NCBI RefSeq assembly: GCF_000211855.2
Contig: NC_015638.1
Span: forward strand, 2,391,001 to 2,455,000
Direction of reading: 5' to 3'
Origin: Lacinutrix sp. 5H-3-7-4
GTDB taxonomy: Bacteria > Bacteroidota > Bacteroidia > Flavobacteriales > Flavobacteriaceae
DNA: 64,000 nt
Position numbers and translations under genes: made by a program. How positions within the stretch are numbered: position 1 is the first letter of the stretch; each line of letters begins with the position of its first letter. This document shows, one piece after another, positions 3,959 to 20,472 of this stretch. The notes below the pieces were generated by a model. That model did no database searches, was not told the origin of the DNA, and saw nothing but the letters and a program-made list of their open reading frames with translations.

Positions 3959-3960
3959 AA

Positions 3961-4464: not shown

Positions 4465-4660
4465 TTATTCTATCAAATAATTGCTATTACAATTAATATG
4501 TAGGCAATTAGAGGGAAGTGAAGAGTTTTAATTAAATGATATAAAATTACGGTTATCCGTAAAAAAGGAATTGAATAAAAAACTAAGTTCGCCCTGTTTT
4601 AATAATTATTTTTAGAAATAGAAGAAATCTAATGTCGTATTAGAAGTAATAAAATAAAAA

Positions 4661-4668
4661 TAGATTTG
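4661..4668 (+). promoter_or_regulatory. Putative -7 element upstream of the Zorya-like operon
   Basis: TAGATTTG fits the Bacteroidota -7 consensus TAnnTTTG and lies 20 bp before the start codon at 4689. No clear TTG -33 element is present at the usual distance, so the call is tentative. The gene-free stretch 4465-4688 holds nothing else I recognise. Confidence 0.35.
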
Positions 4669-4688
4669 ATATAATCAATAATTAAATT

Positions 4689-5912: not shown

Positions 5913-5914
5913 TT

Positions 5915-6619
5915 ATGTCAAGAAGAGGAACACAAGAGTCATATTGGATTTCATTTTCGGATATTATGACAGGCTTAATGGTCATTTTTATGTTTATTGC
6001 ATTAAACTATATAATCCAGATTATTGAATATAAATTTGTAGAACAAGATATTTATAACTCTCTAGAACTTAACCTTAAACAAGAGATTGAAAATGAGGTT
6101 ATAGAGTTGTCTCCAGATGGTACAGTAAAATTTAATTTGCAAACTAAAGATAAGGAGCTTTTTCCATCAGATCGATATACAATGACTTATGAGTTTGAAA
6201 AAACTTTAAACGAGTTTACTCCTAAATATCTTAAAATTATTACTGCTTCAAATTATCTAAATAATATTTCAGAAGTTAGAATAGAAGGTCATACAGATAC
6301 AATTCCTCCAAGAAGAAGTAGAAATAGGGATAGTTATGATTATAACCTAGAACTATCTTCAAATAGAGCAAGATCAGTGTTAAATTATATAAGAAATCAT
6401 GAATCTTATTTAAATTATCCAGATAGTATTAAAACTAGATTGGATTTTTTATTTACAGCTAATGGGTTGTCATACTCTAGGGCATTGAACAGTGGTAAGG
6501 AAGTGTCTTATTTATCATCAGACAAATCTGTGGATAATGATTTGTCTAGACGAGTAGAATTCAAAATTGTAACTTCAAATGAAGAGTTAGCTGAAAAAAT
6601 TATAAATAAAAAGGAGTAG
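5915..6619 (+). CDS. zorB: ZorB-like MotB/OmpA-family protein
   Basis: This 234-aa protein has one N-terminal transmembrane helix containing a membrane-embedded Asp (D16 in ISFSDIMTGLMVIFMFIAL), the position of the proton-binding Asp in MotB. The C-terminal half is an OmpA-like peptidoglycan-binding domain with RIEGHTDT (residues 122-129) and a helix LSSNRARSVLNYI. This is the layout of ZorB, which anchors the ZorA5B2 motor to the cell wall. It starts 2 bp after the ZorA-like gene and is followed 1 bp later by an HNH gene. Function in defence is inferred from this trio; an ordinary TolQ/ExbB-type partner is unlikely because no TolR/ExbD-type protein is present. Confidence 0.85.
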   Translation: MSRRGTQESYWISFSDIMTGLMVIFMFIALNYIIQIIEYKFVEQDIYNSLELNLKQEIENEVIELSPDGTVKFNLQTKDKELFPSDRYTMTYEFEKTLNEFTPKYLKIITASNYLNNISEVRIEGHTDTIPPRRSRNRDSYDYNLELSSNRARSVLNYIRNHESYLNYPDSIKTRLDFLFTANGLSYSRALNSGKEVSYLSSDKSVDNDLSRRVEFKIVTSNEELAEKIINKKE

Positions 6620-6620
6620 T

Positions 6621-7415
6621 ATGATTTATAATTTTTTAAAAGGCACAACGGCAAATAAAATAAAGGAAATTACTAAATCTGAAATAGAAAGAACTAGTCA
6701 GTATTTTATTGAACCAATTGAAAATATAAATTACAGTAAAATAGAATATACCGATAAACGTTTTTTCTTTACCAAAGGAGAAGATACGTTTTTAATGTTT
6801 GCATATAAAAGTACTTATCGAACGCTACATTACAACAGTTTGCCTAAATATCATGTTTGTCAATGTAAAACACGAGAAGAATATGCCGGTTTTACTTATG
6901 CATCAGCAATGCCAGTTGAAATTTATTGCCGAGATCAAAATCAAACTCTAGACAAATTTCAATATCTAGAGCTGTGCTCTAATTGCGCTACTGCCAGTCA
7001 GAATGCTTTTTATGGTTTTTTAGCAAAAGGAAAACCTTGGTATGATTATGTAATCCAATACGCTAACTCTAAAAATGAAATAGCGACCAAGACAAAACAA
7101 AATGGCTATGTTATAATGTGGAAGCAAATATCTCAAGCCATTAGAGAGCGTGTAGATTTTTGTTGTGAAAATTGTCACATCAATCTTGTTCAGGAAAGTT
7201 TTTTTTTAGAGGTTCACCATAAGGATTATAATAAAAAAAATAATTCCGATAACAACTTAATTGCGCTTTGTGTACTTTGTCATGCTACGGTTGATGATAA
7301 ACATTTAAGAAACTTTAAATCAGTACCATTAAAAGTAGAGACTTTTATAGATTCCTATCTATCTTATATAGATAATCATAACAAGCAACGTTTATTAATT
7401 TGGCAACAAAAATGA
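6621..7415 (+). CDS. HNH endonuclease, probable Zorya effector (ZorE-like position)
   Basis: This 264-aa protein has an HNH nuclease at about residues 180-235: CCENCH, then EVHHKDYNKKN with the HH pair, then NLIALCVLCHATVDD. A second cysteine group in the N-terminal half (CQC around residue 78 and CSNC near 116) could bind another zinc. It starts 1 bp after ZorB. Type II Zorya consists of ZorA, ZorB and the HNH protein ZorE, so I infer this is the DNA-cleaving effector. Sequence identity to known ZorE could not be tested; it may be a distinct HNH effector on a Zorya motor. Confidence 0.75.
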   Translation: MIYNFLKGTTANKIKEITKSEIERTSQYFIEPIENINYSKIEYTDKRFFFTKGEDTFLMFAYKSTYRTLHYNSLPKYHVCQCKTREEYAGFTYASAMPVEIYCRDQNQTLDKFQYLELCSNCATASQNAFYGFLAKGKPWYDYVIQYANSKNEIATKTKQNGYVIMWKQISQAIRERVDFCCENCHINLVQESFFLEVHHKDYNKKNNSDNNLIALCVLCHATVDDKHLRNFKSVPLKVETFIDSYLSYIDNHNKQRLLIWQQK

Positions 7416-7510
7416 TTAAAATATTAATAATATTTTTTTTGAATCAGGGATTTTTAGTACGTGTTTATGTTTTAATGAGCAAGAATAAAATTTAATAAAA
7501 GAATAGATAA

Positions 7511-7810
7511 ATGATAGCACGTGTAAAAATAGATGGTAATTATTTAGAGACATTAGATTCTGAGGGTCGTAAAATAGCACGTACTTATTGTAAATCAATT
7601 CTATTAGGCAACTCTAGCAATATAGTAATAGTACAAGATAGTAACTATATAGAAGTGTTAGACCAGGACTTAAAAAAAGTAGCACGTAAGTATTTAAAAA
7701 TAGATAGGTTCTTAGGAGCTTCAGGTGATACTTTTTCCGTTCAATCAGGTAACTACGCTGAAACTTACGATATGAAGTGTAAACAAATCAGTAGAAATTA
7801 TTCAAAGTAA
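7511..7810 (+). CDS. Small three-repeat beta-rich protein
   Basis: This 99-aa protein consists of three units of about 30-35 residues sharing the pattern NYxExxDxxxKxxxRxY: NYLETLDSEGRKIARTY, NYIEVLDQDLKKVARKY and NYAETYDMKCKQISRNY. Each unit looks like a beta-meander, as in a partial beta-propeller or a small multimeric barrel. There is no signal peptide or membrane segment. The stop is 2 bp before the KAP NTPase start, so the two are almost certainly coupled. I do not know its function; a partner or regulator of the NTPase is a reasonable guess. Confidence 0.7.
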   Translation: MIARVKIDGNYLETLDSEGRKIARTYCKSILLGNSSNIVIVQDSNYIEVLDQDLKKVARKYLKIDRFLGASGDTFSVQSGNYAETYDMKCKQISRNYSK

Positions 7811-7812
7811 AT

Positions 7813-9759
7813 ATGAGCACATCTAGTATAATAGATATTCCTAAAAAAGCAGGAGATAAAGATCAATTAGGTATAGATGCCTATAAAAATGGCTTAACTA
7901 ATTTTATAGATTCTGCGCAAACACCTTTAACTATTGCTATTCAGGGAGAATGGGGATCTGGTAAAACATCCCTTATGAATGCTATTAGACATGATTTGTG
8001 CGAGAGTAACAGTAAGTTTCATGGCATTTGGATTAACACTTGGGAATACTCACTGCTTACAGATGAGTACACCACTATGACCAATATTATTCAAGGTATA
8101 ATAGCTTCAGTAATAAGTGAATTGTCTAAAGATAAAAATCAAAATTTAGAAGCTCTTAAAAGCAAAGCTGTTAACTTTTTTAAAGCTGCAACACGTGGTG
8201 CAACAAAATTTGGAGCCAACGCATTAACAGCAGGTGTAGCGGGCGATGCAACAGATGCTTTTTTTGAATCTACAGAAAAACAATCTTCTTTACACGATTT
8301 ACATGCAGAATTACAGGAGCAAATTAATATTAGTGTAGAAAAAAGCAATGGGATTAAGGGTTTCTTGTTTTTTATTGACGATTTAGATCGTATAAATCCG
8401 CCAGTAGCAGTTCAAATACTAGAGTTGCTAAAAAATATCTTTGATTTAGAAAATTGTATTTTTTTACTAGCAATAGATTACGAAGTAGTAGTAAAAGGAT
8501 TAGAGCCAAAATTTGGTAAAAAAACAACCGAAAATGAACGTGAGTTCCGTTCATTTTTCGAGAAAATTATTCAATTACCTTTTACTATGCCAATTGGGCA
8601 ATATCGGGTTAACGACTTAATAATAGATAATCTAACAAAGTTACAATACTTTAATACTGGTGAATTAACACCCGAAATATCAGATGTTATTGTAGATATA
8701 AGTAATCTTACAGTTGGTTCTAATCCAAGAGCTATTAAGCGCTTGTTAAACAGTTTGTCTTTAGTAAGAAGTATTATGCTTGCAGTAGAGAACGAAAGTA
8801 AACCTACAGCTTTTGAACAGCTTATAAATATTGGTGTGTTTAGTATTCAAATAGCCTATCCATTACTATTTAGAGTTTTAGAACGCTATCCAGATTTTAC
8901 CGCTTGGAATGATGAGGTTATAGAAACCTTTAAACTAAAAGCTATAGATGCAGACTTAAAAGACAAATTGTCTAAAAACGAATATTTTGATGAAGAATGG
9001 GAGCAAGTATTGTATCAATTATGCCAACGAGAGAACTTTTTAAGTAATCGTGCTATGCAAATTTCTAGGTTGTTTAATACTTTGAAAATAAGAATAGAAT
9101 GTAATGCAAGCAATGAGACTAATGATTCACAGGATGTAACGTTATTAGACGTGATGACAAATGCTATACAAATAGCATCTGTAACAAGTTATGATACTAA
9201 TAGTGAAGAGCAAAAAGTTAAAGAAATACATAAGTCAGGCTTTTTAAAAGGTTTAAGAGATCGCATATATTTAAAATTAATAAATCAAGCTAAGGCTAAG
9301 AATATTGAAATTCTTTATGAGCAAAAGGCTGTGAGATCTAATCTTACTTTTTTAATTAAAAAGGGAGTACATAAATACCGGTTTGATATAAGTATTGGTA
9401 GCGGATCAAAGGAATACACTTTATTAGCACGTTATGAATGCTGGTATTATGTTAAAGCAATACACAATGACTTTAATCGTAATTTAGAAGAGCCTGATGC
9501 AAAAGCTATAAAAGCTAAAGATAGGTTTGACCAAATGATTATAAAAATGGAACACTTGTCAAATAAGCTACCAGATAATTATAAAATAAATCATAGAGTG
9601 CTAACTAACGACAAGCATAATACAGTCGCAGCTGCAATAGCTGTAACTACTCCAAATGCTTGGGCTTTTATTAAAGATGAAGATAGTCTTCAAATGTTTC
9701 TAGATAATTTAATTAATCTTTTAGAAGTTGTGGAGGATATTAAAATTGTTGGTATCTAA
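7813..9759 (+). CDS. KAP family P-loop NTPase
   Basis: This 648-aa STAND-like NTPase has Walker A GEWGSGKTS at residues 45-53, the KAP-typical WINTWEYS shortly after, and Walker B FFIDDLDRI with D189, D190 and D192. The segment after it (PPVAVQILELLKNIFDLEN, then FLLAIDYEVV) is diagnostic of the KAP family. A short apolar stretch near residues 130-150 (small residues, AATRGATKFGANALTAGVAG) may be the family's membrane-associated insertion, although it is weak. KAP NTPases occur in phage-exclusion and defence loci (for example PifA-related). The gene follows the three-repeat protein by 2 bp and the Zorya-like trio by 400 bp. It may be part of that system or a separate one. Confidence 0.88.
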   Translation: MSTSSIIDIPKKAGDKDQLGIDAYKNGLTNFIDSAQTPLTIAIQGEWGSGKTSLMNAIRHDLCESNSKFHGIWINTWEYSLLTDEYTTMTNIIQGIIASVISELSKDKNQNLEALKSKAVNFFKAATRGATKFGANALTAGVAGDATDAFFESTEKQSSLHDLHAELQEQINISVEKSNGIKGFLFFIDDLDRINPPVAVQILELLKNIFDLENCIFLLAIDYEVVVKGLEPKFGKKTTENEREFRSFFEKIIQLPFTMPIGQYRVNDLIIDNLTKLQYFNTGELTPEISDVIVDISNLTVGSNPRAIKRLLNSLSLVRSIMLAVENESKPTAFEQLINIGVFSIQIAYPLLFRVLERYPDFTAWNDEVIETFKLKAIDADLKDKLSKNEYFDEEWEQVLYQLCQRENFLSNRAMQISRLFNTLKIRIECNASNETNDSQDVTLLDVMTNAIQIASVTSYDTNSEEQKVKEIHKSGFLKGLRDRIYLKLINQAKAKNIEILYEQKAVRSNLTFLIKKGVHKYRFDISIGSGSKEYTLLARYECWYYVKAIHNDFNRNLEEPDAKAIKAKDRFDQMIIKMEHLSNKLPDNYKINHRVLTNDKHNTVAAAIAVTTPNAWAFIKDEDSLQMFLDNLINLLEVVEDIKIVGI

Positions 9760-9775
9760 GTTAATTATAATCACT

Positions 9776-9795
9776 TTTAAAATTTAAAATTAGCT
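9776..9795 (+). repeat. Left copy of a 20-bp direct repeat
   Basis: TTTAAAATTTAAAATTAGCT is identical to 13091-13110 in the same orientation. The right copy is the 3' end of the response-regulator gene (codons A-N-F-K-F-stop on the minus strand). The pair brackets five genes. AT-richness makes chance possible. Confidence 0.6.
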
Positions 9796-10059
9796 ATGAA
9801 AAATGACGAAGTAATATTGATGGGTTATGTTATTCAAGATTATTTAATAAATGAAAATTTGCAAGATGTGAAACCTAAAAATTTAATGTCTTTACTTATT
9901 GAAAAAGGTTTTTTTAATAAAGATCACAGAGATGGTTTGCCTCTACGAAATGTGTTAAGAGAACTCTATGATAAAAACCTACTTTATTTAATACCACAAG
10001 TAAGCTTTGAGCAAAAATCAAAAAATAGATTTTGGTATTTTAATCCATTACAACTGTAA
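9796..10059 (+). CDS. Small winged-helix-like protein of unknown function
   Basis: This 87-aa protein is predicted mostly helical with a C-terminal aromatic strand pair (KNRFWYFNPLQL). The arrangement helix-helix-RNVLRELYDKNLLYLIP-strand resembles a winged helix, but no DNA-binding motif is certain. It starts immediately after the left 20-bp repeat and 36 bp after the KAP gene. It could belong to either the KAP module or the downstream nuclease cassette. No known family recognised. Confidence 0.55.
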   Translation: MKNDEVILMGYVIQDYLINENLQDVKPKNLMSLLIEKGFFNKDHRDGLPLRNVLRELYDKNLLYLIPQVSFEQKSKNRFWYFNPLQL

Positions 10060-10186
10060 CATTTTTTTTTAAATGTATTTATGAGTTAAAACTGTTTGTG
10101 CAGTTAATTAATTCATGTTTTTTACAACAGCGACATGTTTTGTCATAGTTATCACATAATATTTGTATTCATTAAAAAATAAAACA

Positions 10187-10477
10187 ATGGATAACGTATT
10201 AAAAGAATTTACAGACTATTTAGAAGTATATGAAAATATGACTTTTAATGAAGCTGAATCAAGTACAAACAACCTTAAACAATTTGTAGCGAATTGTTTA
10301 AAGACAGTAAATATTAATATTTTACAATTAAAGACACATCAAGAGTTAAAACTAACGATGAGAGCATATCAATTTATAAACAGAAATAAAAATAAACAAG
10401 AACGACTTGCTTTTCATGAGGTAAGTGAGCAATTTAATCAGTATTTGTTACACAAAACGGTTATGGAATGGCTTTAA
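10187..10477 (+). CDS. Hypothetical small helical protein
   Basis: This 96-aa protein is read from the ATG at 10187; a TTG at 10163 in frame would add eight residues but is less likely. It is almost entirely helical (FTDYLEVYENMTFNEAESST, then LTMRAYQFINRNKNKQERLA) with no membrane segment or cysteines. No family recognised. The gap on the left (10060-10186) contains a short imperfect inverted repeat, GACATGTTTTGTC, and no clear promoter. It stands alone between the wHTH-like gene and the nuclease gene. Confidence 0.5.
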   Translation: MDNVLKEFTDYLEVYENMTFNEAESSTNNLKQFVANCLKTVNINILQLKTHQELKLTMRAYQFINRNKNKQERLAFHEVSEQFNQYLLHKTVMEWL

Positions 10478-10550
10478 TTAGTTCTCATGAATAAGTTTTA
10501 CGAGTAGATTAACTCAATTAAAATAATTTTTTTAAAAAACAGACAAATAA

Positions 10551-11510
10551 ATGAACATATTTAAAATTCTTGCAAACGGCCACGGCTCAATTAATGAAAA
10601 TAACATATCTGCCTTTTTAGGTTACTTGTTAGATCCTAAGGCAGATCATTCTTTAGGTTATACTTTTTTAGAGAAATTTTTAGAACCTGTAATTTCAAAA
10701 GATGAAAACTTTAATATCTATAAGTATGATTATAAAGTGTTTTTTGAACAAGGAAAAGAGCAAAGAGTGGATATAGTAATTGTATGTTATACAGATGAAA
10801 ACTATAGTGGTAAAAATTCGCAAATGATAAATTTTTTAACGGCAAAAAAATCTATCCATAAAGTATTTTTAATCGAAAATAAAATCACGCTTACCTCGAG
10901 AACTGTAGATCAGCTAGAAAAACAAATTAAATCAACAACATCTGAATTATCAAAACTCAAGGATTTTGAAATAGATAATGTTGATATTTATTCTATATAT
11001 ACTACACCAGAAGATGATAAATTTGATTTAGAGTTTAAAAATTTGACTACTAATAACAATAAAACTCATATATACTGGGATAATAAAGATGACGAAAAAT
11101 CGAATACTACAATTAGAAGTATTTTAGAAAGATTGCTTAAAGATGAAAATAACGCGAAAATAGAAACAATCAATACATACACTAAAGATACAATCAAATC
11201 ATTTATTCAATTTATCGACAATGGATTTAAATCAGAAATTGCCGAGGAAGAAGTAATGAAAGAAAATTTAACTATCCCTGTTGAGTTAGTGCCTTCAAAT
11301 GCAGATGATTTTAAGACAGCATTTTTAAAAAAAGGAGTAGCTACGGAGCGTTACCATTATGATGATGGTAGAATAGAAGAAAAATTATGGAAGGTTACTA
11401 AATTTAATGAAGATTCTAATTTGATGAGAAATATTTACAGTAAAAATATTAGTAGAAAAGGAAAATGGATTGATTTAGGTATTACAAAGCTTGAAATTGT
11501 AGTGTATTAA
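10551..11510 (+). CDS. PD-(D/E)xK nuclease superfamily protein
   Basis: This 319-aa protein opens with NIFKILANGHGSINENNISAF, typical of PD-(D/E)xK proteins in defence loci, where the N-terminal helix supplies an acidic residue. The catalytic core is QRVDIVIV (Asp) followed, after a long loop, by VFLIENKIT (Glu-x-Lys). The C-terminal third (about 235-319) is a separate alpha/beta region of unknown role. Its stop is 16 bp before the ATG of the next gene, so the two are likely an operon and a functional pair. DNA is the expected substrate, but the target is unknown. Confidence 0.82.
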   Translation: MNIFKILANGHGSINENNISAFLGYLLDPKADHSLGYTFLEKFLEPVISKDENFNIYKYDYKVFFEQGKEQRVDIVIVCYTDENYSGKNSQMINFLTAKKSIHKVFLIENKITLTSRTVDQLEKQIKSTTSELSKLKDFEIDNVDIYSIYTTPEDDKFDLEFKNLTTNNNKTHIYWDNKDDEKSNTTIRSILERLLKDENNAKIETINTYTKDTIKSFIQFIDNGFKSEIAEEEVMKENLTIPVELVPSNADDFKTAFLKKGVATERYHYDDGRIEEKLWKVTKFNEDSNLMRNIYSKNISRKGKWIDLGITKLEIVVY

Positions 11511-11526
11511 TTTATTGCTGTGTTCT

Positions 11527-12132
11527 ATGTATTACCAACTAGAAACCAAATACTGGAGAAGACAAGTACCCTATATTCACGATGAATCTCATAATGAAAC
11601 ACCTGCTAAAGCCGATTTGGTAGAAACAAAAAAAGAGTTTCGTCATGAGTCACCAATTGAAGCGAGAAAAGAAGCGTTCCAGCACTTTTCAAGTATATTA
11701 GATGTTTTGTATAGTGGTTTGGGGATTCCTCAAACCACAGACAAACAAGCAAGAGTAGATTTACAAAAGTATTTAGATTCTGGAAATGGTATAGAATATC
11801 TTAGTAAATACCCAGATAAAAAACATAAAATAAATAGTATCGATATGCATAATGGTTTTGTGATTTATATGGTTGTTAATGAAGTTAAAACACCTATTCA
11901 TGGAATAAGATATCTAGATTATGTAGATCGTTTAGATTATGATCTTTTAGAAGATTTACAAGGATTAATTTTAGAGTATAATTATTACTTAGAAAATAAT
12001 CATTCAGCAACAGGTTATAAAATGAATGTGGATTTTACCACTATTGGCGGAGTTAAAGAAACATTTATTAAGACACCTGTAAACTGGAATGAATTAGTTA
12101 ATGATTATGCTGGCTTAGAGTTAATTTCTTAA
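11527..12132 (+). CDS. Unknown protein, partner of the PD-(D/E)xK nuclease
   Basis: The likely start is the ATG at 11527 (201 aa); a TTG at 11515 is also in frame. I recognise no family. The N-terminal 50 residues are charged (RRQVPYIHDESHNE, KADLVETKKEFRHE), followed by a helix EARKEAFQHFSSILDVLY and an alternating alpha/beta C-terminal half ending NELVNDYAGLELIS. It could be an immunity-like, adaptor or modification subunit. It sits between the nuclease (16 bp upstream) and the WYL regulator (9 bp downstream), so all three probably form one transcript. Confidence 0.55.
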   Translation: MYYQLETKYWRRQVPYIHDESHNETPAKADLVETKKEFRHESPIEARKEAFQHFSSILDVLYSGLGIPQTTDKQARVDLQKYLDSGNGIEYLSKYPDKKHKINSIDMHNGFVIYMVVNEVKTPIHGIRYLDYVDRLDYDLLEDLQGLILEYNYYLENNHSATGYKMNVDFTTIGGVKETFIKTPVNWNELVNDYAGLELIS

Positions 12133-12141
12133 ATATTACAA

Positions 12142-13041
12142 ATGTCTGTACAGGGTAAAATAAAACGTTATTCTTTAATCATTGAAAAGATTAAAAATGG
12201 TAAAAACACTTCTTTTGAAGCTATAAAAAGTTTTTTGTTTGATAATGGATTTGAGCATACTAAACGGACTATCCAACGTGATTTTGATAATTTAAGAAAT
12301 GAATTTGGTGTTGAAATTCTTTACAACAGTTCTAAAAACAATTATTTTATAGATTATGAAAATAGCCCAAATTTTGAAAGCTTTATTCGCTTTTTAGAAT
12401 TGGTAAACACAGCAGATTTACTTAAAGAAAGTTTTAAAAGTAAAAGTAAATCTTTAGAGCATATTGTTTTCGATAATAGCGAAGGCCTTCAAGGAATACA
12501 ATATTTAGAGTTGTTTTTAACAGCAATAAAACAACACAGAGAAATTAGTTTTACACATTATAATTTTCAGAAAAATACAACTACTAAACGATTATTAAAA
12601 CCATACTTATTAAAAGAATATGCTAATCGTTGGTATATTGTTGGAGAACAAGAAGGAATAAAGGAATTTAGGAATTTTGGAATTGATAGAGTGTCTAATG
12701 TACAATTAACAGAAAATACGTTTGTTCCAAATACAGAAGTAGATATTAATTATTTGTATAATGATGTTATTGGTATGGTCTATTCTGAAGATACTAAACA
12801 GAGAGTTGTTTTATCTTTTACGCCAGAACAAGGACAGTATATAAAAACATTACCATTACATCATTCTCAACAAATAATTATAGACTCAGATGTTGAGTTA
12901 CAAATTTCATTAGATGTAATTCCAAATCGATCACTCGTGGAAAGAATTTTAATGTATGGCAATTCGGTCAAAGTAATCGAGCCAAATACTTTAGTTGATA
13001 AAGTAAAAGAAATCTTGGAACTTGCACTTTCAAAATATTAA
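12142..13041 (+). CDS. HTH/WYL-domain transcriptional regulator
   Basis: This 299-aa protein has an N-terminal winged helix-turn-helix of the DeoR type (residues ~5-60, TKRTIQRDFDNLRNEFG) and a WYL domain (~140-215) in which the name-giving triad reads WYI in ANRWYIVGEQ, followed by a C-terminal WCX-like extension. WYL proteins sense ligands, often nucleic acids, and control defence operons (for example BrxR/CapW) by repression. As last gene of the nuclease cassette it most likely represses that cassette and releases it upon infection. Operators were not identified. Confidence 0.85.
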   Translation: MSVQGKIKRYSLIIEKIKNGKNTSFEAIKSFLFDNGFEHTKRTIQRDFDNLRNEFGVEILYNSSKNNYFIDYENSPNFESFIRFLELVNTADLLKESFKSKSKSLEHIVFDNSEGLQGIQYLELFLTAIKQHREISFTHYNFQKNTTTKRLLKPYLLKEYANRWYIVGEQEGIKEFRNFGIDRVSNVQLTENTFVPNTEVDINYLYNDVIGMVYSEDTKQRVVLSFTPEQGQYIKTLPLHHSQQIIIDSDVELQISLDVIPNRSLVERILMYGNSVKVIEPNTLVDKVKEILELALSKY

Positions 13042-13090: not shown

Positions 13091-13110
13091 TTTAAAATTT
13101 AAAATTAGCT
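13091..13110 (+). repeat. Right copy of the 20-bp direct repeat
   Basis: Identical to 9776-9795. It overlaps the last codons and stop of the minus-strand response-regulator gene. Together the copies bracket positions 9796-13090, as expected if a cassette inserted at the 3' end of that gene. Confidence 0.6.
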
Positions 13111-13847
13111 CTTAACCTAGCTATAAAACCAGATTTCTCTTTAGAGGTAATTTCAAATGTTTCTTTAGTATCAAATAGAGAAATATTTGTGTTATCTCTT
13201 TCTTTTATATGTTCTAAATTAACTATTGTGTTCTTACTAATTTTTTCAAACTCGAAATTTTTTAATTCTTTAGAGAGGTTTTGAATAGTTTTTCTTACAT
13301 TTTTATATAATAATTCATCATTCCTACCATAGATATTAACACAGTTCTTTCCTACTGGATCTACATTGTTGAAACTTGATGTACTAATATAGTAAACCTG
13401 TTCAGGTTTAAACCTTACATCTCTATTTGCTCCAATATGTAAAGTAATTAAATCTTTATTAGCTAAATTGGATGAGACATTTATTTTACCAATTACCTTA
13501 TGCTTTAAAACGTCTTCAAATTCTTCTAATTCAAAAGGTTTACTTAAATATCCTGAAATATCAAGAGTATTAATAACTAATTTTTCATTATTTGATGTTG
13601 AGGTTAAAAAAATAATTTTTTTATTACCAGCAATTTTTTGTGCTAATTCAATACCATTATAAACAGGCATTTCAAAATCAACAATTAATAAGTCGAAATC
13701 ATCTTCATTAATTTCTTGAAAGGCTGTTTTAGAATTAGAATAGCTTTTTACGTGGTGTAAATCGTACGCTTTTGGTAATTTATCAATATCATTTTTAACG
13801 TTGTTTAAAACATTTTGGTTATCGTCTACAAGTATATAACGTATCAT
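13092..13847 (-). CDS. LytTR-family response regulator
   Basis: This 251-aa protein has a receiver domain (1-120) with D8/D9 acidic pocket, phospho-acceptor D57 (LLIVDFEMP), switch Thr/Ser in FLTSTS and the conserved Lys in YLSKPFE. A LytTR DNA-binding domain follows (~145-250, with VYYISTSSFNN and FEKISKNTIVNLEHI). LytTR proteins bind pairs of ~9-bp direct repeats spaced about two helical turns apart. Phased repeats are found at 14925-14974, upstream of its operon. It directly follows the kinase gene with no gap, so the two form a two-component system. Confidence 0.9.
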   Translation of the reverse strand: MIRYILVDDNQNVLNNVKNDIDKLPKAYDLHHVKSYSNSKTAFQEINEDDFDLLIVDFEMPVYNGIELAQKIAGNKKIIFLTSTSNNEKLVINTLDISGYLSKPFELEEFEDVLKHKVIGKINVSSNLANKDLITLHIGANRDVRFKPEQVYYISTSSFNNVDPVGKNCVNIYGRNDELLYKNVRKTIQNLSKELKNFEFEKISKNTIVNLEHIKERDNTNISLFDTKETFEITSKEKSGFIARLRANFKF

Positions 13848-14897
13848 TTAATTTAAGCTCAAAGTTAATTCTGCTAAGTATTGATTGTTTGGTAAAGTTT
13901 TATGTTCCAATTTACTTTTAGGATAGTAAGCATTAAGTAATTGTTGTAAAGCGTTTAAGCCAAAATTTGATGGTGTATTTATTTTATTTTCATAATCTAA
14001 ACGTTGTTCCGCACTATTTACTAAGCAATAACTTAATTGTTTTGCTTCATTTTCTTTTAAAATGATACTTATAAAAGAATCTTCAGTATTAAGATTACCA
14101 TGTTTTAATGCATTTTCAACAAATGGGAAGAACAATGTAGGTTTTATTTTAATACTATTATTTTGATCTTTATTTAATTTATTATCAAATTGTATTTTTG
14201 TGTTTGGTTTTAAATACTGAATTAAATCTAAAAACATAGTTATGTGTTTTAGTTCTTCTTCTATAGATGTGTTTTCTTTATTTAAAGCAGATACATTATA
14301 ATCTAAAAGCTTAAAAATATTTTTTAATGCCTTAATAGGAGGTACTGTATTCTGTTTTTTTCCAACTTTGTAATTAACGCCTAAAAAAGATTTATAATTA
14401 TTATCTGCTCTTTCAATGTCATCATAAATCTGGCTAATAACATTTTTTATAAAATGTGCTCCAAGTCTTGTATTATTAGCTTCAACATTTTTAAAATTAA
14501 CATAACGTTCGTATGCTTTTTGTTGATGATTAATTTTTTCCTTATGCTCAGCAATTTCTTTTTCTTTATCACTTAAAAAAGAATGGAATTTTTGTTTGTA
14601 GTCTTCTCTTTCTTGCTCTAGTTGAAAAATTTCATTCACTTTCTTAGTTAGTTTTCTTTCCAGAGATTCTGTTTTTTTTCGCTCCAAATAATATTTAGAA
14701 GCGTCAATTTTAGACTTTTCTATATCATTTAATAATGATTTATTTTTTTTTCTAAAAGAGCGTTTTTTATAAACATTATACCAATTTCTAATTACAAGTA
14801 ATAAGAATAAGCTTAATAATATTAAAAAGCCACTTCTAAGTATTTCAATTTGATCATATAACTCCGTTCGAGTATAGAATTCTGAATAGCGATTCAT
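13848..14897 (-). CDS. LytS/YehU-type sensor histidine kinase
   Basis: This 349-aa kinase has one transmembrane helix near residues 23-40, a long coiled coil (about 45-130), and a His_kinase (PF06580-like) dimerisation segment with phospho-acceptor H148 in RLGAHFIKNVISQ. The ATPase domain carries the N-box FFPFVENALKHGN and a G-box NFGLNALQQLLNAYYP. No periplasmic sensor domain is present, so the signal may come from the membrane or the coiled coil. In these kinases the usual motif is NPHFLFN; here NP is replaced by GA. It is transcribed with the downstream response regulator. Confidence 0.88.
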   Translation of the reverse strand: MNRYSEFYTRTELYDQIEILRSGFLILLSLFLLLVIRNWYNVYKKRSFRKKNKSLLNDIEKSKIDASKYYLERKKTESLERKLTKKVNEIFQLEQEREDYKQKFHSFLSDKEKEIAEHKEKINHQQKAYERYVNFKNVEANNTRLGAHFIKNVISQIYDDIERADNNYKSFLGVNYKVGKKQNTVPPIKALKNIFKLLDYNVSALNKENTSIEEELKHITMFLDLIQYLKPNTKIQFDNKLNKDQNNSIKIKPTLFFPFVENALKHGNLNTEDSFISIILKENEAKQLSYCLVNSAEQRLDYENKINTPSNFGLNALQQLLNAYYPKSKLEHKTLPNNQYLAELTLSLN

Positions 14898-14924: not shown

Positions 14925-14974
14925 TATCCCAAAAATTGAGGTCTATATCCCAAATATAGTTGGTCTATCCCAAA
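14925..14974. promoter_or_regulatory. Three phased direct repeats, candidate LytTR operator
   Basis: TATCCCAAA occurs at 14925-14933, 14946-14954 and 14966-14974, with 21 and 20 bp between starts. This lies between the kinase gene (minus) and the small gene/viperin region (plus). Helically phased short direct repeats of this period are what LytTR regulators bind, so this is a candidate site for the neighbouring regulator. Confidence 0.55.
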
Positions 14975-15023
14975 CCTGAAAATTTAAATCTAATGATTAG
15001 TTCATTTGTATTGTTAACAAGGA

Positions 15024-15042
15024 GTTTAGCATGGTGCTAAGC
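15024..15042. repeat. Short inverted repeat (hairpin) upstream of small gene
   Basis: GTTTAGCA-TGG-TGCTAAGC forms an 8-bp stem with one G-T pair and a 3-nt loop. There is no T-run, so it is not an obvious terminator; it may lie in the 5' untranslated region of the small gene at 15073. Confidence 0.35.
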
Positions 15043-15072
15043 TTTAAAAACAAATAATTAATACTATAAATC

Positions 15073-15213
15073 ATGAGTAATTTAAAACAAAAAAATCACA
15101 AAGCTAATCAAGCAAATGCTAACAAAGGTACACCAGGAAGTAACAAGGCTTACAGTAAAGTACATGGTAACAGAGGTAAACAGTTAAACCCAAATCAGAA
15201 TTTTAAAAAGTAA
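15073..15213 (+). CDS. 46-aa basic hydrophilic protein
   Basis: An ATG at 15073 opens a 46-codon frame rich in Asn, Lys and Gly, including NKGTPGSNKAYSKVHGNRGK and QLNPNQNFKK. I recall very similar short proteins as conserved hypotheticals across Flavobacteriaceae, which supports its being real. It has no hydrophobic core and is probably disordered, perhaps nucleic-acid or stress associated. It lies between the phased LytTR-like repeats and the viperin gene, with a hairpin after its stop. Confidence 0.65.
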   Translation: MSNLKQKNHKANQANANKGTPGSNKAYSKVHGNRGKQLNPNQNFKK

Positions 15214-15277: not shown

Positions 15278-16693
15278 ATGATAAATAAAATAACATTAAG
15301 CGGATTTGCAGGAACAGGGAAATCTACAGTAGGAGAAATATTAAAAGAACAATTAAACTTTGAATTTATATCTGTTGGAAATTATTCTAGAGGTTTTGCA
15401 ATGGAAAAATATGGCATGACTATTAATCAATTTCAAAAGCATTGTGTGGATCATCCTGAATTAGATAATTTAATAGACGATAAGTTTAAATCTGTTTGCA
15501 ATACTAAAAGTAATATAGTTGTAGATTATAGACTTGGATTTCATTTTATTAAAAATGCTTTTAATGTATTATTAAAAGTATCAGACGAAAAGGCATCTGA
15601 AAGAATACGTTTAGGAAATAGGCAAAATGAAGCTACAAGTCCAAAGGAAATTAAATTAAGAAACGACACAATGAGAATGCGTTTTTTAAAACAGTATAAT
15701 GTAGATTTTACTAACGATAATAATTATGATTTGGTTATTAATACAGGTAATTTAACACCAAATGAAGTAGCACAAAAAATTATTAAACATTATCAAGAAT
15801 CTAAGGCTTTAATAGAAATTCCTAGTATTAATTTTCACTTATGGGAACCATGCAACATGCGTTGTAAATTTTGTTTTGCAACCTTTCAAGATGTAAAACA
15901 AACCATTTTGCCAAAAGGACATTTACCAGAAAGTGAAGCTTTAAAAGTAGTGGAACAAATTGCAAATGCAGGCTTTGAAAAAATAACCTTTGCAGGTGGA
16001 GAGCCTTTATTATGTAAATGGTTACCAAACTTAATTAAAAGGGCAAAACAATTAGGCATGACTACTATGATTGTAACTAATGGAAGTAAATTAACAGATG
16101 CCTTTTTAAAAGAAAATACAGCCTATTTAGATTGGATTGCGGTAAGTATAGATAGTTTAGAGGGTGAAAATAATATTGAAATTGGAAGAGCAATTACAGG
16201 AAAGAAACCTTTAAGTAAAACATATTATTATGATTTAGTAAAAGCTATTAAAAATTATGGTTATGGCTTAAAAATTAATACAGTAGTTAATAAAGTAAAC
16301 TATAAAGACAACTTAACAGAATTTATAGAATACGCCAAACCTAAACGTTGGAAAGTATTACAAGTATTACCAATAAAAGGACAAAATGATATTAAAATTG
16401 ATGATTTTAAAATTACAGATACTGAGTATACTCATTTTTTAAATACACATAAAAATGTAGAAACTATAGTACCAGAATCAAATGATGAAATTAAAGGCAG
16501 CTATGTAATGGTTGATCCTGCAGGACGCTTTTTTGATAATGCTCAAGGTACGCATAATTACAGTAAACCAATTTTAGAAGTTGGAATAAAAGAGGCCTTA
16601 AAAACGATGAACTATGATTTAGATAAGTTTTTAAATAGAGGAGGAATTTATAACTGGAATAATGATAAGCATGTAGATTTAATATCGGAATAG
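15278..16693 (+). CDS. Cytidylate kinase-viperin fusion (prokaryotic viperin, pVip)
   Basis: This 471-aa protein is two enzymes. Residues 1-170 are an archaeal-type CMP kinase with P-loop GFAGTGKST (9-17), ISVGNYSRGFA as in the NMP-binding region, VDYRLG, and the family-typical YDLVINTGN end. Residues ~180-471 are viperin: the 4Fe-4S cysteines C192, C196 and C199 in CNMRCKFCFATF, GGEP at 240-243, and a C-terminal part (GSYVMVDPAGRFFDN, SKPILEVGIKEA, DKFLNRGGIYNW) that matches the viperin-specific end, not other radical SAM families. Viperins dehydrate NTPs, e.g. CTP to ddhCTP, a chain terminator of viral RNA polymerases. I infer that the kinase domain feeds CTP synthesis, echoing the CMPK2-viperin gene pair of vertebrates. 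It is followed by two genes at 8- and 5-bp gaps. Confidence 0.93.
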   Translation: MINKITLSGFAGTGKSTVGEILKEQLNFEFISVGNYSRGFAMEKYGMTINQFQKHCVDHPELDNLIDDKFKSVCNTKSNIVVDYRLGFHFIKNAFNVLLKVSDEKASERIRLGNRQNEATSPKEIKLRNDTMRMRFLKQYNVDFTNDNNYDLVINTGNLTPNEVAQKIIKHYQESKALIEIPSINFHLWEPCNMRCKFCFATFQDVKQTILPKGHLPESEALKVVEQIANAGFEKITFAGGEPLLCKWLPNLIKRAKQLGMTTMIVTNGSKLTDAFLKENTAYLDWIAVSIDSLEGENNIEIGRAITGKKPLSKTYYYDLVKAIKNYGYGLKINTVVNKVNYKDNLTEFIEYAKPKRWKVLQVLPIKGQNDIKIDDFKITDTEYTHFLNTHKNVETIVPESNDEIKGSYVMVDPAGRFFDNAQGTHNYSKPILEVGIKEALKTMNYDLDKFLNRGGIYNWNNDKHVDLISE

Positions 16694-16701: not shown

Positions 16702-16995
16702 ATGAGACATTTTGTAGCAGGTTTTTTAAAATCAGAGCATTTTACTTACAGACAATGGGACAGAACTATTAACGATAAAGCATTGAGATCTATATTAAAA
16801 AATGTAGACACAAATAGAAGTAATACTTTACTTATAGTGAGTAGAAAAGTTTTGAAAAAAATAAATATTAAAATAAACAAAGAGTTATTTATTAAAATAG
16901 ATAACAACACCTTGATTACATGTTTTTATTGTGAGTTTCAAGAGTATTGTGCAAATAACAGAGAACAAAATTATTTAATAATAGATAAAATTTAA
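16702..16995 (+). CDS. 97-aa protein, possibly DUF4258/toxin-like, in the viperin operon
   Basis: The N-terminal segment EHFTYRQWDRTINDKALRSI resembles DUF4258 and related small beta-alpha proteins (pattern H-x-R, R-x-I then a helix), and LLIVSRKVL with LITCFYCEFQEYC completes a strand pattern. The cysteines at the C-terminal end (CxxC and a third six residues on) could bind metal. The assignment is weak. It lies 8 bp after the viperin fusion and 5 bp before the nucleotidase-like gene, so the three are almost certainly one operon. Confidence 0.6.
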   Translation: MRHFVAGFLKSEHFTYRQWDRTINDKALRSILKNVDTNRSNTLLIVSRKVLKKINIKINKELFIKIDNNTLITCFYCEFQEYCANNREQNYLIIDKI

Positions 16996-17000
16996 CAAGT

Positions 17001-17414
17001 ATGAAGAAAATAATATTAATTGATATGGACGGTGTTTTAGTTGAATTAGGAGATGGACCGTTTAGTGAAAACAAACATAAAAAAGGTTTTTTTCTGAATA
17101 ATAAACCTATAAAAGGAGCTGTAGAAGCATTTAAGGTTTTAAGTAAGAAATACGATTGTTACATTGTTACAGCACCAGTGTGGAGTAATCCAAACTGTTG
17201 GAAGGAAAAACGATTATGGGTAGAAAAACATTTAGGAGATGATGCTAACAAAAGACTTATTCTAACTCATAATAAAAATTTAGTTAAAGGTGATTATATT
17301 ATTGATGATACTAAAAATTATGGAGTTGATAAATTTGAAGGAAAGCATATTATGTTTGGTAATGATTTATACCCAAACTGGAAAAAAGTTTTAGAATATT
17401 TTATAGATAAATAG
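17001..17414 (+). CDS. 5'(3')-deoxyribonucleotidase-like HAD phosphatase
   Basis: This 137-aa HAD protein has motif I DMDGVL (D8, D10), motif II in the strand IVTAP, the LILTHNKNLVKGDYIIDD segment that in NT5C enzymes holds the motif III Lys and the motif IV acidic pair, and an NWKKVLEYF end. The order and spacing match the 5'(3')-deoxyribonucleotidase family, but it is shorter than the human enzyme (about 200 aa), chiefly from a reduced cap. It would dephosphorylate (d)NMPs. In this operon it may balance nucleotide pools or act on ddh-nucleotide products; that is inference. Confidence 0.78.
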   Translation: MKKIILIDMDGVLVELGDGPFSENKHKKGFFLNNKPIKGAVEAFKVLSKKYDCYIVTAPVWSNPNCWKEKRLWVEKHLGDDANKRLILTHNKNLVKGDYIIDDTKNYGVDKFEGKHIMFGNDLYPNWKKVLEYFIDK

Positions 17415-17993: not shown

Positions 17994-18002
17994 CTAATCT
18001 TG

Positions 18003-18076
18003 TAGCGAGAGCGGGGCACGATCCCGCGGCCTCCGGGTTATGAATCCGACGCTCTAACCAACTGAGCTACCTCGCC
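18003..18076 (-). tRNA. tRNA-Met (anticodon CAT)
   Basis: The cloverleaf has D stem GCTC/GAGC, anticodon loop TTCATAA and T stem GCGGG/CCCGC. The acceptor pairs GGCGAGG with TCTCGCT (two G-T pairs). No CCA is encoded. The T loop reads ATCGTGC rather than TTCRANY, and pair 31-39 is A-C; both are unusual. The D-arm and lack of initiator features fit elongator Met, although a CAT tRNA could also be the lysidine-modified Ile type. Its 3' end faces the defence island. Confidence 0.9.
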
Positions 18077-18091
18077 ATTTATTTGTGGCTG

Positions 18092-18121
18092 CAAATATAT
18101 AAACAAATTAGTAGTACGCAA
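18092..18121 (-). promoter_or_regulatory. Promoter of tRNA-Met
   Basis: On the minus strand TTG (-33), exactly 19 nt, then TATATTTG (-7, consensus TAnnTTTG), followed by CAGCC as at tRNA-Ser. This is the standard Bacteroidota vegetative promoter. Confidence 0.8.
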
Positions 18122-18215
18122 ACATTATTATCAAATAAAATATTTATTTAAAAATTTCTCAACTTATTAATTAATGTATATATTGAGCAAAATAATATTT
18201 CACACAACCAATCAA

Positions 18216-18602
18216 ATGAACGAAAAAATCAAATACGAACTAGAATTTCCTATACACGCTTCACCTTCATTGCTTTATCAATACATCTCAACACCTTCAG
18301 GATTGTCTGAATGGTATGCAGATAATGTAAACTCTCGTGGTGAGCTGTTTAAATTCATTTGGGATGGAGCAGAGGAACAAGCTAAATTATTAACTAAAAA
18401 AAGTGGTGAACGCATTAAGTTTAGATGGATTGATGATGAAGATGAACCATATTATTTCGAGATTAGAATTCAAGTAGACGAAATTACTAAAGATGTTTCT
18501 ATAATGATTACAGATTTTGCAGAAGAAGATGAAGTAGAAGAAAGTAAAATGTTATGGGAAAATCAAATTTCAGATTTAAAACAAGTTTTAGGTTCTGCCT
18601 AA
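18216..18602 (+). CDS. START/AHSA1-like domain protein
   Basis: This 128-aa protein is read from ATG 18216 (NEKIKYELEFPIHASPSLLY); an in-frame ATG at 18174 adds 14 residues of poor quality. It has the START-like helix-grip pattern with FPIHASPSLLYQYISTPSGL, SEWYADNV and a C-terminal helix LWENQISDLKQVLGS. Proteins of this type bind hydrophobic ligands or act as cochaperones; this flavobacterial version has no assigned role. It is followed by a strong terminator. Confidence 0.82.
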   Translation: MNEKIKYELEFPIHASPSLLYQYISTPSGLSEWYADNVNSRGELFKFIWDGAEEQAKLLTKKSGERIKFRWIDDEDEPYYFEIRIQVDEITKDVSIMITDFAEEDEVEESKMLWENQISDLKQVLGSA

Positions 18603-18622
18603 ACAAATACATTTATAAAACT

Positions 18623-18630
18623 TATATTTG
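18623..18630 (+). promoter_or_regulatory. Putative -7 element preceding the class IV aminotransferase
   Basis: TATATTTG (TAnnTTTG) ends exactly where the upstream terminator stem begins, so the next transcript would start inside the hairpin. No matching TTG -33 was found, so this is tentative. Confidence 0.35.
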
Positions 18631-18656
18631 CGCTGAAGAAATTCAGCGCTTTTTTT
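18630..18656 (+). terminator. Intrinsic terminator directly before the aminotransferase start
   Basis: GCGCTGAA-GAAA-TTCAGCGC followed by seven T residues. The ATG of the next gene is the first base after the T-run. Confidence 0.9.
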
Positions 18657-19499
18657 ATGATAAATGTTAACGGAAATATTACAGAAAACAATCAAATTCT
18701 AACTCCAGAAAATCGAGGGTATAGCTATGGCGATGCACTTTTTGAAACGATAAAGGTTTCTCATGGCAAAATATTATTTCTTGAAGACCACTATTTTAGG
18801 TTAATGGCATCAATGCGTATTATGCGTATGGAGATTCCTATGCATTACACCATGGAGTTTTTTGAAGAAGAGCTAAATAAAACAGTTAGCGCAAATAGTT
18901 TAGAAAATGCTTCGGCCAGAGCAAAAATACAAGTGCATAGAAACACAGGTGGTTTATATTTACCAACAAATAAAGAGGTGAGTTTTATAATTTCGGTTAA
19001 AAAATTAGAAGCAGATTTTTATTTATTAGATGAAAAACATTATGAAGTAGATTTATTTAAAGACTTTTACGTTGCACCAGGATTGCTTTCTACTTTAAAA
19101 TCTAATAATAAAGCAATAAATGTAGTTGGTAATATTTACGCTCAGGAAAACGATTTAGATAATTGTTTACTTCTAAATACCAATAAAAGTGTTGTTGAAG
19201 CGCTTAACGGTAACTTGTTTTTAGTAAAAGGAAAAACCATAAAAACGCCACCTTTGACAGATGGTTGTTTAAAAGGTATTATGAGGCTTCAAATACTTAA
19301 TATTTTAGAGCTCTTACCAGAGTATACTTTAGAAGAAACCTCAATTTCGCCATTTGAGTTACAAAAGGCAGATGAGTTGTTTATAACAAATGTAATTACA
19401 GGAATCCAGCCAATAACAAAATACAGAAAAAAGAAATTTGATAATGAAGTTGCAAAACTGTTACTTCAAAAATTAAATGTAAAGGTAAGATTAAGTTAA
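18657..19499 (+). CDS. Class IV (branched-chain/ADC-lyase-type) aminotransferase family protein
   Basis: This 280-aa PLP protein shows the fold-type IV pattern: NRGYSYGDALFETIKV, FLEDHYFRL, the Schiff-base Lys in STLKSNNK, the VVEALNGNLFLVKG segment and DELFITNVITGIQPI. Members include branched-chain aminotransferase, D-amino acid aminotransferase and 4-amino-4-deoxychorismate lyase (PabC). Length and the short C-terminal end favour PabC-type lyase (folate p-aminobenzoate branch), but substrate cannot be fixed. It lies 1 bp after a terminator and converges with yqgE. Confidence 0.82.
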   Translation: MINVNGNITENNQILTPENRGYSYGDALFETIKVSHGKILFLEDHYFRLMASMRIMRMEIPMHYTMEFFEEELNKTVSANSLENASARAKIQVHRNTGGLYLPTNKEVSFIISVKKLEADFYLLDEKHYEVDLFKDFYVAPGLLSTLKSNNKAINVVGNIYAQENDLDNCLLLNTNKSVVEALNGNLFLVKGKTIKTPPLTDGCLKGIMRLQILNILELLPEYTLEETSISPFELQKADELFITNVITGIQPITKYRKKKFDNEVAKLLLQKLNVKVRLS

Positions 19500-19503
19500 G
19501 TGC

Positions 19504-20064
19504 TTAATTGTAACTTGGGTTTTCTGGAGCGTTAGACCAGATACTATAATTACCGCCAAGTTCAACCATTTTTTCTTTCCAGAAAAACTCGTAATCCTTT
19601 TCAATTATAGCTTTTTTATGGATGTTTTTAGTAACTACCCAAGCATTAGATTTTAATTCTTCTTCTAATTGATTGTATTCCCAACCAGAATAACCTAAAA
19701 AGAATTTTATATCTTTTTCACTTATTTTATTTTCGGTAATTAATTTTGAAACTTCACTAAAATCGCCACCCCAATAAATCCCTAAAGAAATTTCTATACT
19801 GTTGGGTATTAAATGCGGCACTTTGTGTATAAAGTATAAATTGTCTTGTTCAACTGGACCACCATTATATACCTTAAACGGAGTTTCAATCTCGGGAATA
19901 AGGTCACTAATAGTGTAGTCTAAAGGCTTATTTAATATAAAACCTATAGAGCCTTCATTGGAGTGATCTGTTAATAAAACAATAGAGCGGTTAAACGATA
20001 AATCTCCTATTATTGATGGTTCTGCGACTAACAAATCTCCTTTAGTTGGTTTAGTTAAAATCAT
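19504..20064 (-). CDS. YqgE/AlgH family protein (UPF0301)
   Basis: This 186-aa protein matches UPF0301: GDLLVAEPSIIGDLSFNRSI, VLLTDHSNEGSIGFILNKPL, YNGGPVEQDNLYFIH and FFLGYSGWEYNQLEEEL are its diagnostic blocks. The family has a solved fold but no established biochemical activity; AlgH was named for a regulatory effect in Pseudomonas. It is transcribed alone, 4 bp from the convergent aminotransferase end. Confidence 0.92.
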   Translation of the reverse strand: MILTKPTKGDLLVAEPSIIGDLSFNRSIVLLTDHSNEGSIGFILNKPLDYTISDLIPEIETPFKVYNGGPVEQDNLYFIHKVPHLIPNSIEISLGIYWGGDFSEVSKLITENKISEKDIKFFLGYSGWEYNQLEEELKSNAWVVTKNIHKKAIIEKDYEFFWKEKMVELGGNYSIWSNAPENPSYN

Positions 20065-20147
20065 AAAAAAAGAAATTTACTTAATAAATGTATACTTTAT
20101 TTTTATAAAAAACAACAGTTTTCATGGTTTATAATTATTTTAAAAAT

Positions 20148-20178
20148 AAAAAAACCTTCTTAAAAAGAAGGCTTTTTT
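20148..20178 (-). terminator. Intrinsic terminator of the HU gene, bidirectional form
   Basis: CCTTCTT-AAA-AAGAAGG has A-runs on one side and T-runs on the other. On the minus strand it follows the HU gene stop by 22 bp and ends in a U-run. Confidence 0.85.
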
Positions 20179-20199
20179 GTATTTATGATGAAGTAAATA

Positions 20200-20472
20200 T
20201 TAGTTTACTGCATTTGCTAAATCAGATCCAGCTTTAAACTTTACAACGTTTTTTGCTTTGATTTTGATTGTTTTTCCAGTTTGAGGGTTTCTTCCATCTC
20301 TAGCAGCTCTTTTTGATACTGACCAAGATCCAAAACCTACTAATGAAACTCTGTCACCTTTTTGTAAAGCGCCTTCAATTTCAATTAACGCACATTCTAA
20401 AGCTTTCTTAGAAGCTGCTTTAGTAATTCCTGCGTGTTCTGCCATAGCATCGATTAAATCTGTTTTGTTCAT
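20200..20472 (-). CDS. hup: HU family DNA-binding protein
   Basis: This 90-aa nucleoid protein is a complete HU: helical dimerisation half (NKTDLIDAMAEHAGITKAAS, KKALECALIEIEGALQKG), the VSLVGFGSWSV strand, and the DNA-binding beta arm with GRNPQTGKTIKI including the DNA-intercalating Pro. It binds and bends DNA without sequence specificity. It is monocistronic, with a clear promoter (20531-20560) and terminator. Confidence 0.96.
   Translation of the reverse strand: MNKTDLIDAMAEHAGITKAASKKALECALIEIEGALQKGDRVSLVGFGSWSVSKRAARDGRNPQTGKTIKIKAKNVVKFKAGSDLANAVN

Follow-up and report, generated by a model that had tools for sequence, protein, structure and literature searches.

Three identical direct repeats in the chromosome of Lacinutrix sp. 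5H-3-7-4 lie between a kinase-regulator gene pair, whose regulator carries a LytTR DNA-binding domain, and a divergent operon that encodes a viperin. The survival of these repeats in related bacteria suggests that they are a switch through which a sensor controls viperin. From the comparisons described below, we consider it fairly probable that the repeats, a candidate site of the adjacent LytTR regulator, would be used by it to activate the viperin operon upon a signal from the kinase. Computed here are the repeats with their conservation and register, the assignment of the proteins to families, and the linkage of the genes.

The word TATCCCAAA occurs three times, without mismatch, on the plus strand, at 14925-14933 (R1; cross-locus consensus TRTCMCAAA), 14946-14954 (R2), and 14966-14974 (R3), and nowhere else in the 64-kb stretch of DNA that was analyzed (the window). 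The start-to-start steps of 21 and 20 bp leave gaps of 12 and 11 bp between the 9-bp repeats, and the array lies in an intergenic region of 175 bp, with the kinase-regulator pair to its left and the viperin operon to its right. In a survey of exact 9-mer triples with steps of 18-24 bp, from which words of fewer than three different letters were excluded, TATCCCAAA formed the sole triple on the plus strand of the 64 kb. The initial annotation had reported three repeats at 21- and 20-bp spacing; the copies proved exact, and dinucleotide shuffles of the 175-bp region produced a triple in 0 of 20,000 cases and at least a pair in 362. The pattern TATCCCAAA-N9..14-TATCCCAAA has matches only here in the 3.30-Mb genome (3,296,168 bp, one contig). 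With one mismatch, the word has 31 matches in the window against a shuffle mean of 23, and 5 of 100 shuffles get there. The single word is unremarkable; it is the phased triple that is remarkable. In passages of PMC4847170, LytTR sites consist of repeats 9-11 nt long with 11-13 nt between them. Repeats of 9 nt with gaps of 12 and 11 nt are within this rule, as had been supposed at the outset from their geometry, and make the array a candidate LytTR site. The same passages (PMC4847170) describe such sites with two repeats, not three.

The genes of the pair are back to back on the minus strand. The sensor histidine kinase (13848-14897; 349 aa) has one N-terminal membrane helix, a long helix, and a kinase core, and the response regulator (13092-13847; 251 aa) has a receiver and a LytTR DNA-binding domain. 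The regulator scores above the cut-offs of PF00072 (59.9 bits, cut-off 30.2) and PF04397 (24.8 bits, cut-off 22.6), which places it among the LytTR response regulators. Both domains were matched in all nine regulators scanned from the orthologous loci introduced below (E up to 0.01), the scan leaving out the regulator of genome G109, whose contig ends after residue 134, within the receiver part. The receiver aspartate of the motif VDFEMP, D57, is invariant in 9/9 and is the predicted phosphorylation site. When a model of the regulator (pLDDT 76.5) was compared with known structures by Foldseek, full-length ComE (4cbv) took ranks 1-5 (261-266 columns, E 6e-11 to 2e-9), at low TM scores (0.37-0.41). 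VIA-align also returned ComE (Z 14.7, 228 residues, rmsd 14.7), most of the other rows being receiver domains, and the LytTR half alone is barely covered by structure matches. Since the second aligner returned mostly receiver domains, the assignment of the LytTR half rests on Pfam.

The kinase scores 19.5 bits with PF06580 (His_kinase, LytS/AgrC-like), under the cut-off of 25.2, and is therefore not filed in that family; a sequence-profile search found no PDB chain at E 0.01. Its orthologues have H148 and PFVENALKHG invariant in 10/10, corresponding to the H and N boxes of a kinase core, and its model (pLDDT 72.8) matches the kinase cores of HK853 and AgrC in Foldseek (E about 1e-7 to 4e-7, TM 0.29-0.33). 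On account of these invariant motifs and of the model match, we treat the protein as a putative histidine kinase outside the Pfam His_kinase family. About 10-25 residues precede its one membrane helix, as read from the alignment rather than from a topology program, so it would have almost no outside domain. Pattern-based scans found neither kinase nor regulator in viral contigs, and a search of plasmids did not find the kinase.

Downstream of the repeats, on the plus strand, the first gene encodes a small hydrophilic protein of 46 aa (15073-15213). It is followed by a nucleotide kinase-viperin fusion (pVip-kinase; 15278-16693), a conserved 97-aa protein (16702-16995) that has no family above cut-off in Pfam and NCBIfam profile searches, and an NT5C-like 5' nucleotidase (17001-17414; PF06941, E 4e-16), the last gene of the conserved run. 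The last two were each found by tblastn in six other loci. The fusion matches the PADLOC model PDLC02905 (1008.7 bits, E 1.2e-304) and the NCBIfam model NF038283 (334.1 bits, cut-off 180), and thus belongs by both to the kinase-fused prokaryotic viperins (pVip). The leader of the operon has an inverted repeat, a potential hairpin (15023-15043, plus strand), centered at offset 108 from R1. In 6/10 orthologous loci it has 8-9 of 9 pairs, in one register and with letters that differ, and in the remaining four it has 3-6 of 9; RNAalifold found no pairs on the MAFFT alignment of the leaders, the hairpin being visible in the ungapped register only. Plasmids of Arcobacter/Aliarcobacter encode relatives of the small hydrophilic protein immediately upstream of a Thg1-like gene (L082/L083 4995-5123), and a 24-residue match lies within a longer Vibrio plasmid protein (L084 4001-4072). 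The protein is perhaps a small companion of nucleotide-acting enzymes.

The locus is set in a defense island. In the window at 316-13041, PADLOC matches comprise a type I specificity subunit, a PDC-M62 pair, ZorA/ZorB/ZorE of Zorya II, a P-loop NTPase, a PDC-S26-like gene, and a WYL regulator (12142-13041), the neighbor of the response regulator. On its other side (region 18002-20472) the island has its end close to a tRNA-Met gene. The chromosomal genes found there also flank the G109 locus (L022 666-4543), where a phage-type integrase (PF00589) is present in addition. The common neighbors, the tRNA-Met gene, and the integrase make it likely that the boundary region is an insertion hotspot.

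A search with the kinase matched 15 of 299 genomes of the family, where the orthologues besides that of the window are those of G168 (76% identity) and G109 (60%) only, the remaining matches being 28-35% identical. A scan of genome contigs gave nine loci: eight orthologues, among them L030, which was merged with G109 since both are on one contig, and a distant relative (L032, 30% identity), which was dropped as non-orthologous before counting. The resulting ten loci are the window, G168 (L021), G109 (L022/L030), an uncultured Flavobacteriaceae (L024), Lacinutrix sp. (L025), a 5.3-kb contig labeled Saprospiraceae (L026), Lacinutrix mariniflava (L027), Winogradskyella psychrotolerans (L028), Xanthomarina sp. 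(L029), and Aequorivita xiaoshiensis (L031). They are related and do not amount to ten independent observations. The kinases of the other loci are 56-76% identical to that of the window, and the regulator adjoins the kinase in 10/10, that of G109 being cut by the contig end. The array had been placed by the initial annotation between the LytTR pair and the small gene and viperin genes, an arrangement that recurs, viperin being divergent from the kinase in 9/10 orthologous loci.

The exception is W. psychrotolerans, with no viperin in the 1.5 kb of sequence available; on its downstream side a small protein is followed by one of 120 aa, which in G168 and L025 comes after the nucleotidase. This protein of 119-120 aa (L028 557-919, L021 5473-5832, L025 3924-4283) comes after the viperin operon and stays by the pair where viperin is missing; its L021 and L028 copies have no Pfam match. 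The first gene of the operon also varies. The 46-aa protein was found by tblastn in five other loci (G109, L024, L025, L027, L031), the first gene of G168 and L028 encodes another small protein (L021 8175-8318, L028 1214-1390), and L026 and L029 have none. The small first protein of G168 scores 25.6 bits with Pfam Ifi-6-16, below the cut-off of 29.1. In A. xiaoshiensis (L031 6137-6489) the match to the nucleotide kinase part that precedes viperin is broken into two separate fragments, and an intact fused kinase may thus be missing there.

An ungapped alignment of the ten intergenic regions has TRTCMCAAA-like words at offsets 0, 21, and 41. Conservation of the repeats had been named as a check: in 9/10 orthologous loci all three are present in one register and none departs from TRTCMCAAA by more than one mismatch, and A. 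xiaoshiensis keeps two of the three. The three words together match in 27/27 positions in the window, L021, L024, L026, L027, and L029, in 26 in L025 and L028, in 24 in G109, and in 23 in A. xiaoshiensis, where the first word has decayed (6 of 9). Between loci, mean pairwise identity is 0.87 for the repeats (0.83, 0.94, and 0.84); the spacers have 0.52 and 0.70, the flank that precedes R1 has 0.39, and the sequence beyond R3 has 0.45-0.64. R2, the best conserved repeat (94% pairwise), runs on as CAAATATA in 10/10 loci. Triples of 20-21 matches occur by chance three times elsewhere in these loci at the same loose threshold, and A. xiaoshiensis, little above them, is the weakest case.

Among the 299 family genomes, six have a triple with at most three mismatches: the window genome (G000) and G168 at none, G109 at three, and three kinase-less genomes at three. 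In the first three the triple is found at the kinase-viperin locus only. A reversed control pattern has matches in five genomes at the same threshold, and the triples of G044, G057, and G075, in none of which the kinase search had a match, are for that reason taken as background; those of G044 and G075 sit among unrelated genes. The G109 triple, with its three mismatches, is no better than these background matches and, like that of A. xiaoshiensis, is counted because of its position. A match to the repeat pair in G059 was set aside as chance; by reading, it is inside a coding frame. In seven further kinase-bearing genomes the triple was found in six, at this locus only, and not in that of A. 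xiaoshiensis (at most three mismatches).

The distribution of viperin allows one to ask which partner the repeats follow. Viperin was found in 6/299 genomes of the family (E 1e-40), 3/296 of the order, and 2/392 of the phylum (E 1e-30), samples that overlap and together yield eight distinct genomes; the phylum sample has no viperin genome besides G000 and G498. The orthologous pair and the triple are both present in G000, G168, and G109. The viperin loci of G113, G002, and G498 have no triple, and beside viperin tblastn, reading, and Pfam found no receiver, LytTR, or kinase family. The Pfam recheck covered most of the larger neighboring frames and was made because the distant LytTR regulators of G033 and G476 escape a tblastn search with the window regulator. 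In these three genomes viperin is preceded by a protein of 634-827 aa (L046 5832-7760, L047 5735-8218, L071 2193-4097), two of the three being without a Pfam family above cut-off and one having TPR repeats.

In G033, a different kinase and LytTR regulator are in one operon with a 45%-identical viperin (kinase-regulator-viperin), and in G476 a LytTR regulator is directly upstream of viperin, with no kinase recognized. Neither has a TRTCMCAAA triple. This kind of regulator therefore adjoins viperin in 5/8 genomes, in three arrangements, the LytTR domain having been seen in four and that of G109 being cut off. The regulator-viperin gap of G033 (L048 5045-5155) has the words TTCATTACA, TTGATTACA, and TTCACTACA at 21+21 bp, a different word in the same geometry, which 10/2000 Markov samples equal. 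These words are only suggestive, since they were found after viewing eight regions and the one other genome of the genus examined has no such viperin.

Distant kinases (about 28-37% identical; 13 loci, L006-L018) have no viperin within up to 1.5 kb per side and no triple. Among the orthologous pairs, only that of W. psychrotolerans was found to have no viperin beside it; all three repeats are present there, and control of viperin is therefore not the sole reason for the repeats. Because viperin loci without a recognized two-component neighbor lack the triple, the repeats, on these comparisons, track the regulator, and the exact triple accompanies a single lineage of it. The initial annotation had staked its claim on the fate of the repeats where pair and viperin are apart, and the claim came through: the locus with the pair and no viperin keeps the triple, and the viperin loci without a recognized pair (G113, G002, G498) lack it.

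Flavobacterial promoters have TAnnTTTG at -12 to -5, according to passages of PMC9723704. When 11 sites were scored for this motif on the plus strand, it fitted best at offset 76 from R1 (mean 4.27 of 6, against 3.45 for the second-best position), a result reached by 0/2000 independent Markov sets but by 68/2000 column permutations. In the window it corresponds to TTCATTTG (15001-15008; 5/6), the proposed -7 box of the small gene/viperin promoter, with R3 ending 26 bp upstream of it and a predicted transcription start near 15013. The box is weak, with 3-5 of 6 in most loci and a conservation of 0.58 vs 0.64 just upstream. On the minus strand, a possible -7 box of the kinase-regulator operon, TATATTTG (14951-14958), lies inside R2 and matches TAnnTTTG 6/6 in 10/10 loci; the predicted transcription start of that operon would be near 14946.

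Lacinutrix mariniflava has a second perfect 21/20 triple (L027 4359-4310), beyond the nucleotidase gene and 2.5 kb from the other copy, with no kinase gene alongside. At exactly offset 76 this copy has TACATTTG, which is 6/6 to TAnnTTTG. It also has TATATTTG, in a place with no divergent kinase gene, so TATATTTG may belong to the protein site; alternatively, it may act as a promoter for the kinase. The second triple and the two small open frames after it, of 50 aa and about 34 aa, are at L027 4359-3900, and the regulator may have a further target in this small-gene operon. Counted from R1, the first downstream frame of 40 aa or more begins after 138-160 bp in 10/10 loci, and after 158 bp in the second L. 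mariniflava copy; the kinase start is 28-70 bp away from R1, and 64-70 bp in 7/10. As the distance to the kinase is also fairly constant, spacing alone cannot tell the target side. The second L. mariniflava copy with its box at offset 76, together with L026 and L029, where no other frame stands between the repeats and the kinase-viperin gene, favors the viperin-side promoter as the probable target. Activating LytTR repeats are placed 4-11 bp upstream of -35 boxes in passages of PMC6193735, and repeats ending 26 bp before the proposed -7 box would be in a similar, activator-like position.

The repeats could also be explained if the regulator bound them for its own operon only, the viperin operon being merely adjacent. 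The triple without viperin in W. psychrotolerans, the invariance of the kinase-facing TATATTTG in R2, and the kinase start at 64-70 bp from R1 in seven loci would all fit. Such an explanation is nevertheless unlikely, as the second L. mariniflava copy has no kinase and yet is followed by a small-gene operon with a perfect -7 box, and linkage to viperin is kept in nine of the ten loci though the kinases differ by up to 44%. A different possibility is that the regulator represses the viperin operon until the signal releases it. LytTR regulators are able to act either way, and the sequence data would fit either sign of the effect. The repeats, however, end upstream of the proposed -7 box and not over the box or the start, like the activating repeats in passages of PMC6193735, which leaves repression quite unlikely.

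It is very improbable that another regulator, such as the neighboring WYL protein (12142-13041), binds the repeats. WYL proteins co-localize with defense systems (PMC9122601), and both the window and G168 have a WYL gene adjoining the regulator. However, it was found in these two of the ten loci only, and the repeats persist elsewhere, so WYL control was rejected: tblastn within about 6 kb of the regulator found no match in L024, L025, L027, L028, L029, and L031, the search being inapplicable to L026 and G109, where the contigs end. That the array is neutral or structural, a product of duplicated DNA or of chance with no regulator involved, is the least credible. AT-rich intergenic DNA does yield word pairs at times, as in 362 of the shuffles, but none of the 20,000 gave a triple, and the selective conservation in register is maintained in loci whose kinases are only 56-76% identical to that of the window.

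For activation of viperin through the repeats, the reading we prefer, we infer binding, activation, signal, and feedback as follows. The membrane-anchored kinase, with almost no outside domain, would sense a change in the cell envelope or membrane and phosphorylate the LytTR regulator. The regulator would then occupy R1-R2-R3 as tandem LytTR sites on one helix face and switch on the divergent promoter, whose -7 box is 26 bp beyond R3. The genes under this promoter would be the four from that of the small protein, through the fusion and the 97-aa protein, to that of the NT5C nucleotidase. Binding may also feed back on the kinase-regulator operon. Such feedback is probable in that R2 overlaps the TATATTTG box facing the kinase, and doubtful in that TATATTTG is also in the second L. 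mariniflava copy, where a kinase promoter is unneeded; its sign could be either, repression being the simpler guess. So small an outside part of the kinase points to the membrane, or to a partner protein, as the source of the signal, and the setting of the locus in a defense island makes phage-caused stress a natural guess.

The system resembles AgrA, ComE, YpdB, PlnC, and VirR in having a receiver and a LytTR domain in the regulator and a partner kinase adjacent, and its array resembles the AgrA/ComE-type sites, which are 9-bp direct repeats with gaps of 11-12 bp, upstream of the target promoter. It differs from them in having three repeats rather than two and a word of its own, TRTCMCAAA, and in that the proposed target is an antiviral operon, whereas regulators of the AgrA/ComE type control virulence, competence, bacteriocin, or transport genes. 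LytTR Regulatory Systems pair a LytTR protein with a membrane inhibitor and have no kinase; here a receiver domain and a kinase core are present, which sets the pair apart from them. WYL-type defense regulators are one-component repressors, unlike the kinase-dependent two-component system described here. The LytTR Regulatory Systems HdrRM/BrsRM share with the present pair, as far as passages of PMC6193735 describe them, a LytTR regulator with a membrane partner, direct repeats mostly 11-13 bp apart, and autoregulation. A regulator encoded inside a defense island is common to the present locus and to the WYL-type regulators (PMC9122601).

HicA/RelE neighbors of prokaryotic viperins are described in passages of PMC10865869, and passages of PMC12839542 mention neither viperin nor LytTR. 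The literature searched contained nothing that joins viperin and LytTR, or viperin, histidine kinase, and phage, and described no two-component control of pVip; the original pVip paper, which was outside its scope, may mention such neighbors. The array follows the known rule of repeat length and gap and differs from known LytTR sites in the number of repeats, three and not two, and in its proposed antiviral target.

How prokaryotic viperins are kept off or turned on is not described in the literature searched, and a dedicated sensor kinase together with a mapped, conserved candidate site makes the control of viperin directly testable. If the proposed control is true, bacteria would express an antiviral nucleotide enzyme in response to a signal. 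More tentatively, the locus might provide an inducible antiviral state, in which phage attack or envelope damage, sensed by a membrane kinase, would turn on viperin through the three-repeat LytTR switch, in parallel to the interferon-induced viperin of animals, and LytTR regulators might have been recruited to viperin more than once, as a divergent pair, as a pair in the same operon, and as a regulator alone.
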